A stretch of DNA of 52,816 nt, taken from Anaerolineae bacterium (GTDB lineage Bacteria; Chloroflexota; Anaerolineae; SpSt-600). The notes under the pieces were generated by a model. The model was not told the DNA's origin. It ran no database searches and saw only the letters and a list, made by a program, of their open reading frames with translations. Position numbers and translations under genes: made by a program. Of this stretch, positions 2,975 to 52,816 are shown one piece after another (position 1 is the first letter of the stretch; each line of letters starts with the position of its first letter). The stretch covers positions 1 through 52,816 of the forward strand of contig JANXAG010000013.1 in assembly GCA_025062375.1 (NCBI GenBank), written 5' to 3'.

Positions 2975-3624
2975 GTCTCCTCCTTTTTATCAGGGTTTTC
3001 AAGGCCTTTTAAAAGGAGAGCTAAAGCAGCTTCGGCCATTTTCTCCAGAGAAAAGCCCAAAAGCTCACGCCTGAAGGGTATGGACATGAGGACAATAACT
3101 CCGTGGATTGAAGCCCACAGAACTGCGGCAGTGAGCCATGGGTCGCAGGGGCGAAAAAGTTCTCTCTGGATCCCTTCCTTAATGGCTTTTGCCACCCACT
3201 GAAGGGCTTCCTGGTTTTTGGTTTTTATTTCCTCGCCGAGCTCCGAAGGTATTTTCTCGTGGAGGCGGCCTCGGTCAAAGGCCACCATGAGGCGGAAATA
3301 GAAGGGGTTTTCTTTGAAAAACTGAAGGTAAGCACCTGTTAGACGATAGAGCCTCTCGGTTGGAGAGAGGTTCTGCTGTGGGACGTAAGCTTCAGCGAGC
3401 TTTTCTAAAAGGATATCAAACCCTTCCAGGAGAAGATGGGCGAGGATCTCTTCCTTGCTGGAAAAATAAAGGTAAATAGTGCCTTTACTCAATTCAGCGG
3501 CGGCTGCTACATCTTCAACGGTAGCCTCACCTATACCCTTGGAGGAAAAAACTTTGCGTGCTGCTTCCAAAATATCCTGTTTTCTTTGCTCTTTTTCCCT
3601 TGCCCGCCGCTCGCTTGTGCTCAT
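2971..3624 (-). CDS. TetR/AcrR-family transcriptional regulator of the beta-oxidation operon
   Basis: The 217-residue protein has an N-terminal TetR helix-turn-helix (RKQDILEAARKVF, then VEDVAAAAELSKGTIYLYF at roughly residues 15-60) and a C-terminal helical ligand domain resembling FadR/AcrR regulators of fatty-acid genes. A longer reading frame begins at 3660, but its start lies inside an operator and only about 10 bases from the predicted transcript start. I therefore use the internal ATG at 3622-3624. It is the first gene of the operon, coupled to the thiolase. Two 13-bp palindromes over the promoter imply autoregulation. The ligand is probably an acyl-CoA, by family and context, which is an inference. 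Confidence 0.92.
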   Translation of the reverse strand: MSTSERRAREKEQRKQDILEAARKVFSSKGIGEATVEDVAAAAELSKGTIYLYFSSKEEILAHLLLEGFDILLEKLAEAYVPQQNLSPTERLYRLTGAYLQFFKENPFYFRLMVAFDRGRLHEKIPSELGEEIKTKNQEALQWVAKAIKEGIQRELFRPCDPWLTAAVLWASIHGVIVLMSIPFRRELLGFSLEKMAEAALALLLKGLENPDKKEET

Positions 3625-7767: not shown

Positions 7768-8682
7768 TTAAGGTACTGCTGGGATTCGTTGCAAAAAGAC
7801 CTTCCCCATGGCCAGGGTATTCCTGACCATTATGGAAAGGCTTCTTTGAGGGGGCAACTCCCATTCTTCAAGGCCTCTGGCTATTGCCCCTTCATAGCTT
7901 CTTACTTTGAAAGTGAAGGGAGGAGGAAAGTTATCCTTCGCCCAGGCCAGGGCCATCCCCACGACCTGGGGGCTTTCAGTTTGATAGTTCGGGTGAAGGA
8001 ACAGCTTTATCCACTTGCTTCCCTTCTCCTTCCACGTTATCAAAAAGGCCACGGGCTCAGTCTCTCCTTTGAGGATTCTTTCCTTTTGTTCTACCATAAG
8101 CTTGTGTAAAAATCCAGGCCTTTTCAGAGTTAATCCCCCTTCCGTTTGCCGGACCGGAGTCGGCGTTATGCTCTGGTAGAATTTCACTATAAAATGACGC
8201 TCTTCAGGTTTTACCGGTTGCCAGTTACCTGGCTCCGGCAGGCCTTCTGGCAGAGAATTCACCGCATACAAGAATTCGCGGGCATAGACCGAAAATCCAG
8301 CACGCCGGAATATCACTTCTTCTTCCTCGGGGACGTCAACAAATAACTTGTTTACCCCCAGGCCCCCGAGGCGCCAGGAAGCATAGTTTAAGAGCGCTTC
8401 CCAGATGGCGGTAGAGAACCCATCGTAATTGGGAGCAGGTGCAATATAAACTACTTCTGCCCCTTCCCGTTTGTAGTCCTTGCGAGTCTGGATGAATCCA
8501 CTGGCCTTTCCCTGCATTATATATGTGGCAAAATCTCTTTCTGCCAGGGACAAAAAGGCTAAAGAGAGGCACGCTCGTTGCCACGCTCCGGACCTTTCCG
8601 GAACAAGGCCAAAACCCTTGCCTTTGCTTTCAAGGCTAAATATCAGCCATAAATCCAGAGGAGAGCTCAAAGGCCTTATCAC
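7768..8682 (-). CDS. GNAT-like protein of unknown function
   Basis: The 304-residue protein begins with GTG overlapping the pdxT stop by four bases (GTGA). Its layout resembles two weakly conserved acetyltransferase-like halves: about residues 20-135, with [14 protein letters not shown] and the [11 protein letters not shown] strand, and a C-terminal half ending [18 protein letters not shown]. No clear acetyl-CoA pyrophosphate loop (Q/RxxGxG/A) is visible, so catalytic activity is uncertain. No signal peptide or membrane span is seen. Its tight coupling to pdxT and the R3H ATPase gene is the main clue to its role. Confidence 0.7.
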
Positions 8683-10289: not shown

Positions 10290-10309
10290 CAAGTGGGGAG
10301 GGTGGACTC

Positions 10310-10619
10310 CCAGAGGGGGTCCAGGGGGCTTTAGCCCCATGGCAGGGGGTCTGGGGGATGTGGTCCCAGAAACCTTAAAAAGGGAGCGATCAGCCAACCC
10401 TTGCATCCCGCCCACGAGTGGGACCCAAAACCGTGGCAAACCCTAAGCCCACGAGGGCGGGAAAATCGGGGGTCCAGGGGGCTTGCCCCTTGGCAGGGGG
10501 GTCTGGGGGATGTGCCTCCAGAAACCTAAAAAAGGGAGCGATCAACCACCTCCTGCATCCCGCCCACGAGTGGGACCCAAAACCACGGCAAACCCTATGC
10601 CCACGAGGGTGGGAAAAAA
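10310..10619 (+). repeat. Dispersed hairpin-rich repeat, cluster A (about two units, period 152 bp)
   Basis: Two near-identical blocks start AGGGAGCG at 10381 and 10533, a period of 152 bp, preceded by a partial block. Each unit carries, in order, CCCGCCCACGAGTGGGACCC, GCCCACGAGGG, TCCAGGGGGCT and GTCTGGGGGATGTG. Several elements fold as hairpins (CCCA/TGGG; CCCAC/GTGGG; GGGGC/GCCCC; TCTGG/CCAGA). The same unit, in the same orientation, recurs at 44391-44670 and 52636-52816. The cluster fills the divergent gap between pdxS and the plus-strand island. No reading frame or transposase is attached, so it is best called a REP-like intergenic element. Confidence 0.85.
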
Positions 10620-14720: not shown

Positions 14721-15538
14721 AGCTTTTCTTTACCGACAGGCCCGTTCCTCCCGATTCCCCCGCTTACGTGGAGCGCTCCGCTGACATTAAAATCCGTCAC
14801 CTTATCCTTCAAAACACGCCCGTTTATCTATCCGCTCCTCCCCTTACGGGGAAGACTTCCCTTCTCTTTCGCCTTGGGTTTTTCCTCCTCCCTATGGGCT
14901 TTTCCTTCTTCTATCTGAGGTTAAGTCAGGAGACCTCTCCAGAAGAACTGGATTCTTTCCTCAGGGACTGTTCCACGGTCAGCGCAAGATGCGTTTTAAT
15001 AGTGGATAATGTGGAGAAAAGGGAAGGGCTCCTTTTGGTTCTGCGGCGCTGGCTTTACCAGCATCCTGACACACCCTTAGTAGCGGCTGGAACCTTCCTT
15101 CCATACCCGGGGGAGATTTCACCTCTGGTGGAGATAGCTCTGGGGTTCTTTTACAGACCCCACGTTTTACAGCTGGTAAACCTCCTGGGTTTAAAGGGAG
15201 AAGAGGCCAGGAGAACCTTGGAAGCCATTTACTACTGGAGTGGCGGATACCCTTACATCGTCCAGAGCCTGTGCGCAGCCCTGGCCGAAGGCCAGAGCCT
15301 GGAGGAAGCCGTGGAAGGCTTCACCCGGCACGATAGAAACCTTTTACCCACCCTGCGAGAAGCCCTGCTGGGGACACCGGAAGCTCTTGATTTATACAAA
15401 CGCATCCTCAAGGGCGAACGGATAAGCTACCGGCAAACTGTGCCCCTTGTGAGAAGAGTTCCTGCTCTGGGGGCCCTTTTCAGAAGCGACGAGAAAGGAT
15501 TTACGCGCCTTTCTTCTCCTCTTCTAAGCTGCCTCTAA
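14717..15538 (+). CDS. AAA-like ATPase (PF14516-type P-loop protein)
   Basis: The 273-residue protein opens with FFTDRPVPPDSPAYVERSAD, the lead-in typical of the AAA-like domain family that is often fused or linked to TPR proteins and signalling modules. The P-loop APPLTGKTS (40-48) lacks the first glycine, but GKTS is intact. Walker B RCVLIVDNVE (91-100) follows, with a sensor-like WLYQHPDTPLVAAGT after it. The C-terminal part is helical, as in STAND-type NTPases. The ATG overlaps the TPR stop (14717-14720). It ends tail-to-tail with mrp, overlapping by 4 bases. Confidence 0.8.
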   Translation: MKLFFTDRPVPPDSPAYVERSADIKIRHLILQNTPVYLSAPPLTGKTSLLFRLGFFLLPMGFSFFYLRLSQETSPEELDSFLRDCSTVSARCVLIVDNVEKREGLLLVLRRWLYQHPDTPLVAAGTFLPYPGEISPLVEIALGFFYRPHVLQLVNLLGLKGEEARRTLEAIYYWSGGYPYIVQSLCAALAEGQSLEEAVEGFTRHDRNLLPTLREALLGTPEALDLYKRILKGERISYRQTVPLVRRVPALGALFRSDEKGFTRLSSPLLSCL

Positions 15539-16629
15539 TCCCCTTCGGAGAAATCCGCAATGGAGACGAAGAAGCGAGGAATCACCTCCGGCACAAGGTC
15601 CTGGATTCTGGCTGCCAGCGCTTCAAACTCATCCAGATGGTATTCTTCCAATCTCCCTTCATCGCAAAGCCTGGCTATTTGGGGGTCAATGGGGATTTTA
15701 GCCAGGAGAGGAACTTTGAGTTCCCGGGCTATCTCTTCTCCTTTGCTCGGGCCAAAAATTTCCCACCGGGTTCCGGTATCAGGACATATTGCGTAGCTCA
15801 TGTTTTCCACAACCCCAATTATGGGGATGTGGAGGTGCCTGGCCATTTGCGTGGCTTTCTTCACGATGATCCGGACCAGCTCCTGGGGAGAAGTTACCAA
15901 GATAATGCCATTGAGGGGTAAAGATTGCATAACAGTTAGGGAAGCGTCAGCAGTGCCGGGCGGCAGGTCCACGATCATGTAATCTAGTTCTCCCCAGAAG
16001 ACATCGCCCCAGAATTGCTGGATAGCTTTGGCGATAAGAGGGCCGCGCCAGATCACGGCGTCTTCCTCTTTTAGGAGGAACAGGTCTATGGACATGACCT
16101 TTATTCCCGTGGAGCTGGCCGGTGGAATTATTCCTTTGGGGGCAGGGATGGGTTTTTCCTTCACTCCCAGGATCTTAGGGATGCTGGGGCCGGTAATATC
16201 GGCATCCATTATGCCCACGCGGTAATTGCTACGGCGCAGGTGAATAGCCAGGAGGGCAGCCACTAAAGATTTCCCAACCCCTCCCTTTCCACTCATCACC
16301 GCTATCACTTTCCCAATGTTATTGAATCGCCTGGCTATTCCTTCCTCTGGCACTACTGAGCCCACAAGGGCTTCTCTTTCCTCCGGGCTCATTTGGGTTA
16401 GAGTTACTTCTACCTCCCTTACCCCTTCCACCTGGCTCAAAGCTTTTTTCACTTCCTCCACCAGTATCTCCCGCAGGGGGCAAGCGAGGGTTGTGAGGGC
16501 GAGGGTGATTTTCACCTTTCCTTCCCTTTCCTCAAGCCCCTTCACCATCTTTAAATCCACGATGCTTCGGCCCAGTTCAGGATCATGGACTTTCTCCAGA
16601 GCTTCCCAGAGCAACTTTTTTTCCACCAC
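15535..16629 (-). CDS. mrp: Mrp/NBP35-family iron-sulfur carrier ATPase with N-terminal MIP18 domain
   Basis: The 364-residue protein has an N-terminal MIP18/DUF59 domain (HDPELG at 15-20, TLACPL with Cys50), then a deviant Walker ATPase (SGKGGVGKS at 113-121, ADITGPSIP at 143-151). The family delivers Fe-S clusters. The usual C-terminal CPxC pair that bridges the cluster is here Cys282-Pro-Asp-Thr285, so the second cysteine is absent. Two adjacent GTG codons (16627-16629 and 16624-16626) are possible starts; AGGAGG is better spaced for the second. It follows era by six bases. Confidence 0.93.
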   Translation of the reverse strand: MVEKKLLWEALEKVHDPELGRSIVDLKMVKGLEEREGKVKITLALTTLACPLREILVEEVKKALSQVEGVREVEVTLTQMSPEEREALVGSVVPEEGIARRFNNIGKVIAVMSGKGGVGKSLVAALLAIHLRRSNYRVGIMDADITGPSIPKILGVKEKPIPAPKGIIPPASSTGIKVMSIDLFLLKEEDAVIWRGPLIAKAIQQFWGDVFWGELDYMIVDLPPGTADASLTVMQSLPLNGIILVTSPQELVRIIVKKATQMARHLHIPIIGVVENMSYAICPDTGTRWEIFGPSKGEEIARELKVPLLAKIPIDPQIARLCDEGRLEEYHLDEFEALAARIQDLVPEVIPRFFVSIADFSEGD

Positions 16630-32075: not shown

Positions 32076-32202
32076 ATAGGAAAAAAGTCCTGCCAGGTGA
32101 AGCCACCGCACCCCCATTTCTTATCCTTATAGGCCCGGAGCTTCAGGCCTCACTCGTGGACAGGTGGCGGGTATCTGAAGCTTGCCCTTTTAAAATTTTT
32201 GA

Positions 32203-32222
32203 GGGGACATGCCCACGTCCCC
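32203..32222 (-). terminator. Hairpin after the cpgS-like gene, probable transcription terminator
   Basis: GGGGAC/GTCCCC form a 6-bp stem with an 8-base loop, 10 bases after the stop of the GTPase gene on the minus strand. It is followed by an A/T-rich TCAAAAATTTT stretch rather than a pure T-run, so termination is plausible but not certain. Confidence 0.5.
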
Positions 32223-32232
32223 CCGCTACCGA

Positions 32233-33570
32233 TTATCGCTCCACTTGAAGGTTAAGCTCAAAGAAGTGCTTTATTACTTCTTCCAAATCCGGCTTGCTAA
32301 CTTCCTGAAGCTCGTATCTAACTCTTACCAGAGGTTTGTTTACTTTTATAACGTGTCTCAGGTCTATTGGAGTAGCCACCAGGACTAGGTCACAAGGTGT
32401 GGCGTTAATGGTGGCTTCGAGCTCTTCTATTTGTTTGGCTCCATATCCTACAGCTGGCAGAAGAGGTCCTATGTGAGGATACTTCTGGAAAGTTTCAGCG
32501 ATGGAGCCCATAGCATAAGGCCTCGGATCTATAAGCTCGGCCGCACCGAATTTCCGGGCAGCCACTACTCCAGCTCCATAACTCATTTCCCCATGGGTGA
32601 GGGTAGGCCCATCCTCAATGACCAGGACCCTTCGTCCCTTTATGGCCTCGGGGTTTTCCACAAAGATGGGCGAAGCCGCCTCTATAACGATGGCCCGGGG
32701 ATTCACCCGCCGAACACTGGCTTTGACAGCTTCCACATTTTCGGGCTTAGCAGTATCTACTTTGTTTACCACCACCACGTGAGCCATCCTCAAATTCGTC
32801 TCACCAGGATGGTAAGTGACCTCATGGCCAGGGCGGTGGGGATCGGCTACCACTATGTGGAGGTCAGGTTTAAAGAAGGGGAAATCATTGTTGCCGCCGT
32901 CCCAGAGAATAACATCGGCTTCTTTCTCAGCTTCCCGGAGGATGAGCTCGTAGTCCACACCACCGTATACGACGAAACCGTTAGCGATGTGGGGCTCGTA
33001 ATCCTCTCGCTCCTCAATGGTGCAGCCGAAGCGGTCCAAATCTTCAAGGGAAGCAAAACGCTGAAGGACCTGCCGTCTCAAGTCACCGTAGGGCATGGGG
33101 TGGCGGACCACCACCACTTTCCTGCCTATATCTCTGAGAACTCTTGAAACCCTGCGGCTGGTTTGGCTTTTGCCGCTCCCGGTCCTCACAGCGCAAACAG
33201 CTACAACAGGCTTTGAAGACTTGAGCATGGTGCTCTCAGCCCCCATGAGGCGGAAATCAGCCCCACAAGCCAGAGCCAGCGATGCCCTGTGCATCACGTA
33301 TTCGTGAGAGACATCGCTATAGGCGAAAACGACTTCATCCACGCTGTAGTGCTTTATAAGTTCTGGAAGTTCTTCTTCCGGATATATGGGGATTCCCTGA
33401 GGATAGAGAGGCCCGGCTAATTCAGGTGGGTATATTCTCCCCTCAATGTTGGGGATTTGGGCAGCCGTAAAAGCCACAACTTCGTAATTGGGATTTGAAC
33501 GGAAGAAGACGTTAAAGTTATGGAAATCTCTGCCTGCTGCTCCCATAATTATGACACGTCTTCTGCCCAT
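32233..33570 (-). CDS. Cyclic 2,3-diphosphoglycerate synthetase-like GTPase
   Basis: The 445-residue protein resembles the COG2403 family of predicted GTPases, whose archaeal member makes cyclic 2,3-diphosphoglycerate. The N-terminal Rossmann-like part begins RRRVIIMGAAGRDFHNFN. The P-loop is CAVRTGSGKSQTSR (about 131-144), and VVNKVDT resembles a G4 motif. The later part has RVLVIEDGPTLTHGEM. Whether the bacterial homologues make the thermoprotectant or do something else is not established. It is the last gene of the DUF177-to-tat operon and sits 13 bases after tatC. Confidence 0.8.
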   Translation of the reverse strand: MGRRRVIIMGAAGRDFHNFNVFFRSNPNYEVVAFTAAQIPNIEGRIYPPELAGPLYPQGIPIYPEEELPELIKHYSVDEVVFAYSDVSHEYVMHRASLALACGADFRLMGAESTMLKSSKPVVAVCAVRTGSGKSQTSRRVSRVLRDIGRKVVVVRHPMPYGDLRRQVLQRFASLEDLDRFGCTIEEREDYEPHIANGFVVYGGVDYELILREAEKEADVILWDGGNNDFPFFKPDLHIVVADPHRPGHEVTYHPGETNLRMAHVVVVNKVDTAKPENVEAVKASVRRVNPRAIVIEAASPIFVENPEAIKGRRVLVIEDGPTLTHGEMSYGAGVVAARKFGAAELIDPRPYAMGSIAETFQKYPHIGPLLPAVGYGAKQIEELEATINATPCDLVLVATPIDLRHVIKVNKPLVRVRYELQEVSKPDLEEVIKHFFELNLQVER

Positions 33571-44369: not shown

Positions 44370-44390
44370 TTTATCCTGAGAGTGCTCCCC

Positions 44391-44670
44391 GAAACCTTAA
44401 AAAGGGAGCAATCAACCAACCCCTGCATCCCGCCCACGAGTGGGACCCTAAACCATGGCAAACCTCAAGCCCACGAGGGTGGGGAAAATTCGGAGGTCCA
44501 GGGGCAAAGCCCCCTGGCAGGGGGCCTGGGGGATGTGCCCCCAGAATCCTCAAAAAGGGAGCAATCAACCAACCCCTGCACCCCGCCCACGAGTGGGACC
44601 CTAAACCATGGCAAACCTCAAGCCCACGAGGGTGGGGAAAATCGGGGGGTGGAGGGGGGCATAAGCCCCC
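44391..44670 (+). repeat. Dispersed hairpin-rich repeat, cluster B (two units, period 153 bp)
   Basis: The unit start AGGGAGCA occurs at 44403 and 44556. The copies keep the elements CCCGCCCACGAGTGGGACCC and GCCCACGAGGGTGGGGAAAA. The spacer carries CCAGGGG/CCCCTGG and CTGGGGG/CCCCCAG hairpins. The orientation matches clusters A and C. Long frames cross it on both strands only because each unit is a multiple of three; they are not genes. It lies between the LysM gene and an MFS gene. Confidence 0.87.
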
Positions 44671-44786
44671 ATCCCGAGAAGTATAAAGCCTGACACTAAA
44701 AGCTAAACGGAAGAGCCCCATCTCAGGCCACAAGGAGAGCTTTGCGCAGTCCTGCCCAGCAGCGTGTTCCAGGATGAAGACATGCA
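44671..44786. other. Gap between repeat cluster B and the MFS gene
   Basis: About 115 bases without a reading frame of its own. Only the tail region of the minus-strand MFS transcript lies here. I see no terminator or promoter in it. Confidence 0.4.
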
Positions 44787-52635: not shown

Positions 52636-52816
52636 GCGAACCTCAAGCCCACGAGAGTGGGGAAAATCGGAGGATCCAGGGGGAAAAGCCCCCTGGCAGG
52701 GGGTCTGGGGGATGTGCCCCCAGAAACCTTCAAAAAGGGAGCGATCAGCCAACCCTTGCACCCCGCCCACGAGTGGGATCCGGAACCGTGGCGAACCCTG
52801 AGCCCACTAGGGGGAA
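52636..52816 (+). repeat. Dispersed hairpin-rich repeat, cluster C, truncated by the window end
   Basis: One and a part unit in the same orientation as clusters A and B, with GCCCACGAGAGTGGGGAAAA, CCAGGGGG/CCCCCTGG and TCTGGGGG/CCCCCAGA hairpins, AAAAAGGGAGCGATCAGCCA and CCCGCCCACGAGTGGGATCC. It begins about 48 bases upstream of the metal-importer promoter. Confidence 0.85.

Follow-up and report, generated by a model that had tools for sequence, protein, structure and literature searches.

A dispersed family of modular, hairpin-bearing intergenic repeats in two sister species of uncultured Anaerolineae

Results and Discussion

We describe a family of non-coding repeats, with a unit of about 152 bp, that lies in arrays between the genes of an Anaerolineae draft genome (2.15 Mb in 94 contigs, 95% complete; the source genome) and of its sister species in the same genus, the metagenome-assembled genome 'Anaerolineae bacterium isolate RSWS10' (82% complete). 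The repeats are dispersed genome-wide in both orientations, sites that are filled in one lineage are empty in the other, and each species has its own consensus sequence. The most likely explanation, and one in which we have fair confidence, is that these are small, non-autonomous, modular mobile repeats resembling REP, BIME and BOX elements that have spread separately in each species. Repeats of the REP, BIME and BOX sort have been studied chiefly in cultured Proteobacteria and in Streptococcus. The present family belongs to uncultured Chloroflexota, occupies 3% or more of one small genome and breaks its assemblies, and the two sister species together give a dated before-and-after view of a hairpin core that gains a module and multiplies.

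Repeat units in the window

The window, that is, the whole stretch of 52,816 nucleotides that was analysed, is one contig (C13) of the source genome. An earlier note on this DNA had described units of about 152 bp at three sites, and direct reading together with a repeat search confirmed them, giving five good copies distributed as two, two and one over what we call arrays A, B and C. The spacing of the units is 152 bp at 10307-10618 and 153 bp at 44380-44641, and a covariance model scored the three full units at 167, 160 and 144 bits, which is far above chance. The order within a unit is a hairpin, H1, a second hairpin, H2, and then a module, B.

All three arrays read on the plus strand. Array A consists of unit 1 (H1-H2-B, 10307-10458), whose left end is decayed with unique DNA adjoining it at about 10295, and of the complete unit 2 (H1-H2-B, 10459-10618, 166.8 bits), to which unit 1 is 89% identical. 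In unit 2, H1 is at 10474-10493 (CCAGGGGG-loop-CCCCTTGG) and shows covariation, H2 is at 10503-10521 (CTGGGGG-ATGTG-CCTCCAG) with covariation at its closing pair, and B is at 10522-10618, where it carries CCCACGAG as an internal direct repeat, is restricted to the genus and is without pairing covariation. Array B starts with a partial unit that begins at its B module (44380-44482), continues with a complete unit (44483-44641, 159.8 bits) and ends in an H1 hairpin of the GGA/TCC type (tggaggggggcataagcccccatccc, 44650-44675, recognised by eye), so that it reaches about 44677 and extends beyond the limits given before. Array C comprises the tail of a preceding B module (52636-52659) and a complete unit (52660-52816, 143.8 bits) that runs to the end of the contig; the third site coincides with a contig end because such arrays break assembly. 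The note was also right that no transposase accompanies these sites. Its statement that the orientation is the same throughout the window does not hold, since a decayed fourth copy lies on the minus strand at 32116-32252 (37.2 bits, E 2.5e-8).

Pairing is conserved in H1 and H2

The four hairpins proposed for the unit in the earlier note are reduced to two: H1 and H2 are upheld by covariation, and the others lack such support. That pairing partners are kept when the copies vary was borne out by changes from C-G to G-C at two adjacent pairs of H1 and at the closing pair of H2. In an alignment of 42 units, 92% of the cells in H1 and H2 were paired, both sides had changed in 40 cells compared to 15 in shuffles, and the covariation score was 2.4 times that of the shuffled alignment and was halved when the partner was shifted by one column. 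Pairing was also tested with one hairpin per array and with the partners shuffled among arrays. Pairs 2 and 3 of H1 were then paired in 83-90% of cases against about 50% after shuffling in both species, and pair 2 of H2 in 63% against 42% in RSWS10. When all column pairs of 338 distinct units were scanned without assuming any structure, H1 ranked first (C-G 200, G-C 70) and no Watson-Crick covariation was detected in B. Since both forms of H1 are present in both species, few events may underlie many of the covarying cells. Relatives in other families nevertheless carry further paired forms, namely, GCA/UGC, GCAA/UUGC and UCA/UGA. A single whole unit did not fold clearly better than its dinucleotide shuffles (RNA z -1.4, DNA z -0.7) and thus it is covariation on which the case for structure rests. 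These comparisons show that pairing in H1 and H2 is under selection.

Modular organisation of the arrays

Two forms of each hairpin occur, CCAGGGGG-loop-CCCCCTGG or GGAGGGGG-loop-CCCCCTCC for H1 and YTGGGGG-ATGTG-CCCCCAR or GTGGGGGG-TGT-CCCCCCAC for H2, and together they make a double hairpin of about 50 nt. It is followed by the B module of about 95 bp, in which the direct repeat consists of two copies of CCCACGAG; at two loci (L041 and L039), sequence inside the unit has been deleted or duplicated at CCCACGAG. One to about seven units follow one another head to tail and not in the alternating orientation of BIMEs. The ends of the arrays are often partial modules, and the borders of the arrays coincide with borders of modules, falling after one of B, H1 and H2. 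Partial and exchanged modules are found within one and the same array, which is the modular mosaic that characterises BIME and BOX elements. In RSWS10 a further module of about 90 bp (GACCTAACCCCCTGACCCCCTTCCCTGCGAGGGAAGGGGG...GAGAGGTTA) lies inside the arrays or directly beside them and has the orientation of the array in 82 of 87 hits, a count that includes duplicated loci. No coding frame is repeated across arrays, and most of the open reading frames overlapping them run antisense or are unstopped extensions.

A module of about 90 bp with the palindrome CCCCCTTCCCTGCGAGGGAAGGGGG takes the place of the central part of the unit in many RSWS10 arrays (L077 4120-4205, L080 4292-4368, L084 2668-2778 and others). 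Its orientation is nearly always the same and, among the hits listed, it is found in this genome only. Decayed copies of a repeat, CATTGCGAG...GAAGCAATCTCC, adjoin several arrays, usually on their left side (L037 about 3060-3110, L066 about 8120-8220, L108 2900-2990 and L077 6600-6700).

Spread in the source genome and in the sister species

A DNA search of the source genome returned 71 matching stretches and a profile search found about 50 clusters, with 94 unit hits in all. The sites are on both strands in about equal numbers, and the strands are mixed even within single contigs (C5, C6, C11, C12 and C57). Many contigs end inside arrays (C5, C11, C16, C17, C20, C57, C63 and others) and therefore these copy numbers are underestimates. 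In RSWS10, 208 unit hits in 55 clusters were found in the first 258 kb read. The arrays of RSWS10, with up to 7 units, are longer than those of the source genome: from part of each genome, they amount to at least 126 non-redundant arrays with a sum of 55 kb, a median of 421 bp and a maximum of 972 bp, compared to a sum of 10.8 kb and a median of 195 bp in the source genome. An exact core pattern, CCACGAGTGGGACCCNRAAC, was searched for in 84,980 species genomes, where by our estimate about 4 matches are expected by chance, and it gave 88 stretches in one assembly only, that of RSWS10. The same pattern was absent from IMG/VR, and blastn against phages and plasmids gave no relatives of the unit.

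The identity between units is 77% within a species and 68-70% between the two, and the species-specific consensus sequences fit an amplification that took place after the species split. Adjacent units of one array (0.77-0.79) are no more alike than units of different loci (0.75-0.77), which shows that the arrays are not mainly young local duplications; local homogenisation of the arrays was rejected on the same grounds.

Filled and empty sites

At seven sites the sequences on both sides of the array can be aligned between the species. In each case an array is present in one species (RSWS10 in five, the source genome in two) and absent from the other, in which the genes are almost contiguous. 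Two of the junctions can be read. At 15536-15541 of the window, which is empty, the corresponding site in RSWS10 (contig C8) has an insert of about 1 kb that is bounded on each side by TAATCC (6 bp), and both convergent stop codons are intact. At the filled locus L049 of the source genome a copy of GCCTTTGTGA (10 bp) stands on either side of the insert, and its empty counterpart (L228) has a single copy of GCCTTTGTGA in that place. The direct repeats at these junctions thus differ in length, 6 against 10 bp, and in the other five comparisons the junctions are too diverged for the ends to be defined. A scan of the flanks of 94 arrays found 9 direct repeats of at least 10 bp against 4.1 in mismatched flanks, and because this excess of about twofold is weak, target duplication was rejected as a general rule. 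Neither a terminal inverted repeat, as in BOX, nor a fixed end of the element was seen at the junctions inspected. We make no claim of defined termini because at the ends of two of the inserts the sequence is decayed or foreign.

Ten neighbour genes have an array in both species, and the orientation of the array relative to the gene is conserved at five and inverted at five, the pdxS and znuA sites of the window being among those inverted. This count is small and was made post hoc, and it favours recurrent insertion at the same places over inheritance.

Since arrays were inserted on either strand and separately in each species, they must be copied in trans. The earlier note had raised mobilisation in trans, which is the best reading because sites occupied in one species are empty in its sister. 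Its description of the repeats as a family of REP-like or structured elements, dispersed between genes, is supported as well. The mechanism that we propose starts from a unit that is a composite of the H1-H2 double hairpin and the genus-specific B module. Arrays would be inserted between genes, on either strand, by a factor acting in trans, possibly a nuclease or transposase that recognises the hairpins as single-stranded DNA, and insertion may leave short duplications of variable length. The number of units in an array would then shift by recombination or slippage between units, and the same may occur between the two copies of CCCACGAG inside B.

Origin of the modules

The whole-unit covariance model was run on 298 genomes of the class Anaerolineae with the best nine candidates per genome scored, and it matched in 12 of them. 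Beyond the genus, the matches are almost all confined to H1-H2 (model positions 15 to about 63-80), and several of these are multi-copy, among them the one in another genus of the same family (G002, a draft genome 84% complete); the copy numbers outside the genus are lower bounds. Where the model was assigned at full length in other genera, the B part aligned poorly. The only candidate homologue of B, in G280 (L245), was rejected as a chance match, for it falls inside a coding sequence that resembles one for a histidine kinase and then a response regulator. From the distribution of the matches, H1-H2 is older and more widespread, and B, and hence the 152-bp unit, is new in the genus. The lone H1-H2 hairpins of other Anaerolineae are a class-wide REP-like family. 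In G002, G112, G140 and G285 (L237, L238, L239 and L243) H1-H2 alone occurs in several copies with compensated changes in the stems.

Search for a mobilising enzyme

The draft genomes were screened for Y1_Tnp (PF01797), RVT_1 and DDE_Tnp_1. The earlier note had suggested a link to REP-associated tyrosine transposases (RAYT), and this link fails because no Y1_Tnp was found in the source genome at 95% completeness and the single Y1_Tnp gene of RSWS10 is flanked by TTTGGCACTTCGTGCCAAGCGTC palindromes that are unrelated to the 152-bp unit. That gene and its palindromes are a RAYT-and-REP-like pair of their own; it lies on contig C39 (L118 1320-1900, about 8.2-8.5 kb) with TTTGGCACTTCGTGCCAAGCGTC...GACGC palindromes on both sides in direct orientation. 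G002 also has one Y1_Tnp gene, and no H1-H2 is present at its locus. Retro-copying, which the variable left ends had brought to mind, was rejected because RVT_1 is absent from all three genomes. DDE_Tnp_1 is absent from RSWS10 and was rejected as the mobiliser because the source genome has only a remnant of 73 amino acids. As for the autonomous partner that a MITE would have, no intact Y1_Tnp, RVT_1 or DDE_Tnp_1 gene was found in the source genome. Transposases of the families tested are scarce in both genomes and therefore the mobilising enzyme should be easily narrowed down. A further reading, possible but doubtful, is that the class-wide double hairpin became fused with a new module and that the resulting genus-specific repeat is copied by a type of enzyme new to bacterial palindromic repeats, that is, neither Y1/RAYT nor reverse transcriptase nor DDE_Tnp_1, with whole arrays being inserted at recurrent sites upstream of promoters.

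Gene context

The arrays are intergenic and over both genomes have no fixed relation to the neighbouring genes, the arrangements being near random (codirectional 17 and 14, divergent 15, convergent 10). Their effect on the host is probably mostly neutral, copies being tolerated upstream of promoters and at borders of transcription units. Array A begins a few bases upstream of a perfect sigma-70-type promoter (TTGACA-16-TATAAT, 10289 to 10262, minus strand) directed toward pdxS and leaves it undisrupted. In RSWS10 an array remnant likewise lies upstream of the pdxS promoter.

Alternative explanations

The tandem layout, the mosaic of partial units and the deletions and duplications at CCCACGAG would also be expected of a local minisatellite family in which slippage and recombination set the size of the arrays and gene conversion or rearrangement spreads the loci without transposition. 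One RSWS10 array (L223 3751-4240) joins the flanks that lie beside two different arrays of the source genome (L057 7386 and L043 3288), as expected from a crossover between arrays. However, the filled sites match compact gene junctions in the other species without any trace of a unit, neighbouring units resemble each other no more than distant ones do, and the orientation of an array relative to its neighbour gene, which is inverted at 5 of 10 shared neighbours, cannot be reversed by a crossover between arrays. We consider it unlikely that the family arose in this way.

That the units are transcribed and function as gene leaders, as processing or stability elements or as a tandem small RNA is quite improbable. 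The covarying hairpins and the many copies upstream of genes would agree with it, as would the downstream gene being codirectional with the array in 31 of 43 cases in RSWS10, but the figure is only 15 of 36 in the source genome, and between the species either orientation of the array is found beside the same gene, unlike a leader RNA with a fixed orientation to the gene downstream. No Rfam family was above its gathering cut-off (the best was engA with 22.1 bits against 46), and the 152-bp period, not being a multiple of three, keeps no repeated reading frame. The chromosome-organisation site put forward in the earlier note, whether directed toward origin or terminus or bound by a nucleoid protein or topoisomerase like some REPs and BIMEs, could account for the copy number, the intergenic position and the orientation that the window's three strong copies have in common. 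It is nevertheless unsupported and very improbable, because both strands are mixed on contigs and even within the window (a hand count of neighbouring sites that share a contig in the source genome gave equal orientation for 9 and opposite for 8), the orientation of arrays between the species is as often inverted as conserved, and their positions are not conserved. Thus, modular mobile repeats copied in trans remain our preferred explanation.

Comparison with known repeat families

The repeats are a real new family whose behaviour is akin to that of BOX, BIME and YPAL elements, although the full set of defining features of none of these is found in it. The BOX elements of S. pneumoniae have the structure boxA-boxB(n)-boxC and number about 125 per genome of about 2 Mb (PMC3049150). 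Like them, the present repeats are modular, intergenic and non-coding, have a module in tandem in variable number and predicted stem-loops, behave like MITEs and cluster with other repeat families (PMC3049150). They differ from BOX in having no terminal inverted repeat, in the length of the unit (about 152 bp against about 50 bp or less), in being G+C-rich and in belonging to another phylum, the relation in sequence being judged by library searches only.

With REP and BIME they share dispersed intergenic palindromes in mosaics with other modules (PMC3733652, PMC2817692) and a class-wide hairpin core in which the sequence changes fast and pairing is kept. Unlike REP and BIME, the units are head to tail and not alternating, and the source genome has no RAYT. 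The REP tag GTAG/CGTC, looked for by eye in the consensus of 42 units, is not conserved at the foot of H1 or H2; GTAG is present inside B in part of the RSWS10 units only.

The YPAL/RU-2 elements of Yersinia are described, in the part of a review that we draw on (PMC2229807), as about 168 bp long, with target duplications of 3-26 bp and without a known transposase. By the same account they too are not A+T-rich and have internal inverted repeats, but they belong to gamma-proteobacteria, no tandem arrays are described for them there and they are unrelated in sequence as tested.

The PIT/TM triplex motifs of E. coli combine a hairpin of a G-run and a C-run with a further G-run and are dispersed between genes, with a link to local sequence variability (PMC4666352). 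They differ from the present family in the sequence of the motif, and in H1 and H2 pairing is kept beyond the G-run. The layout of H1-H2, a G-run, a stem and a G-run, is like that of PIT/TM (PMC4666352); any triplex formed by these G-runs is putative.
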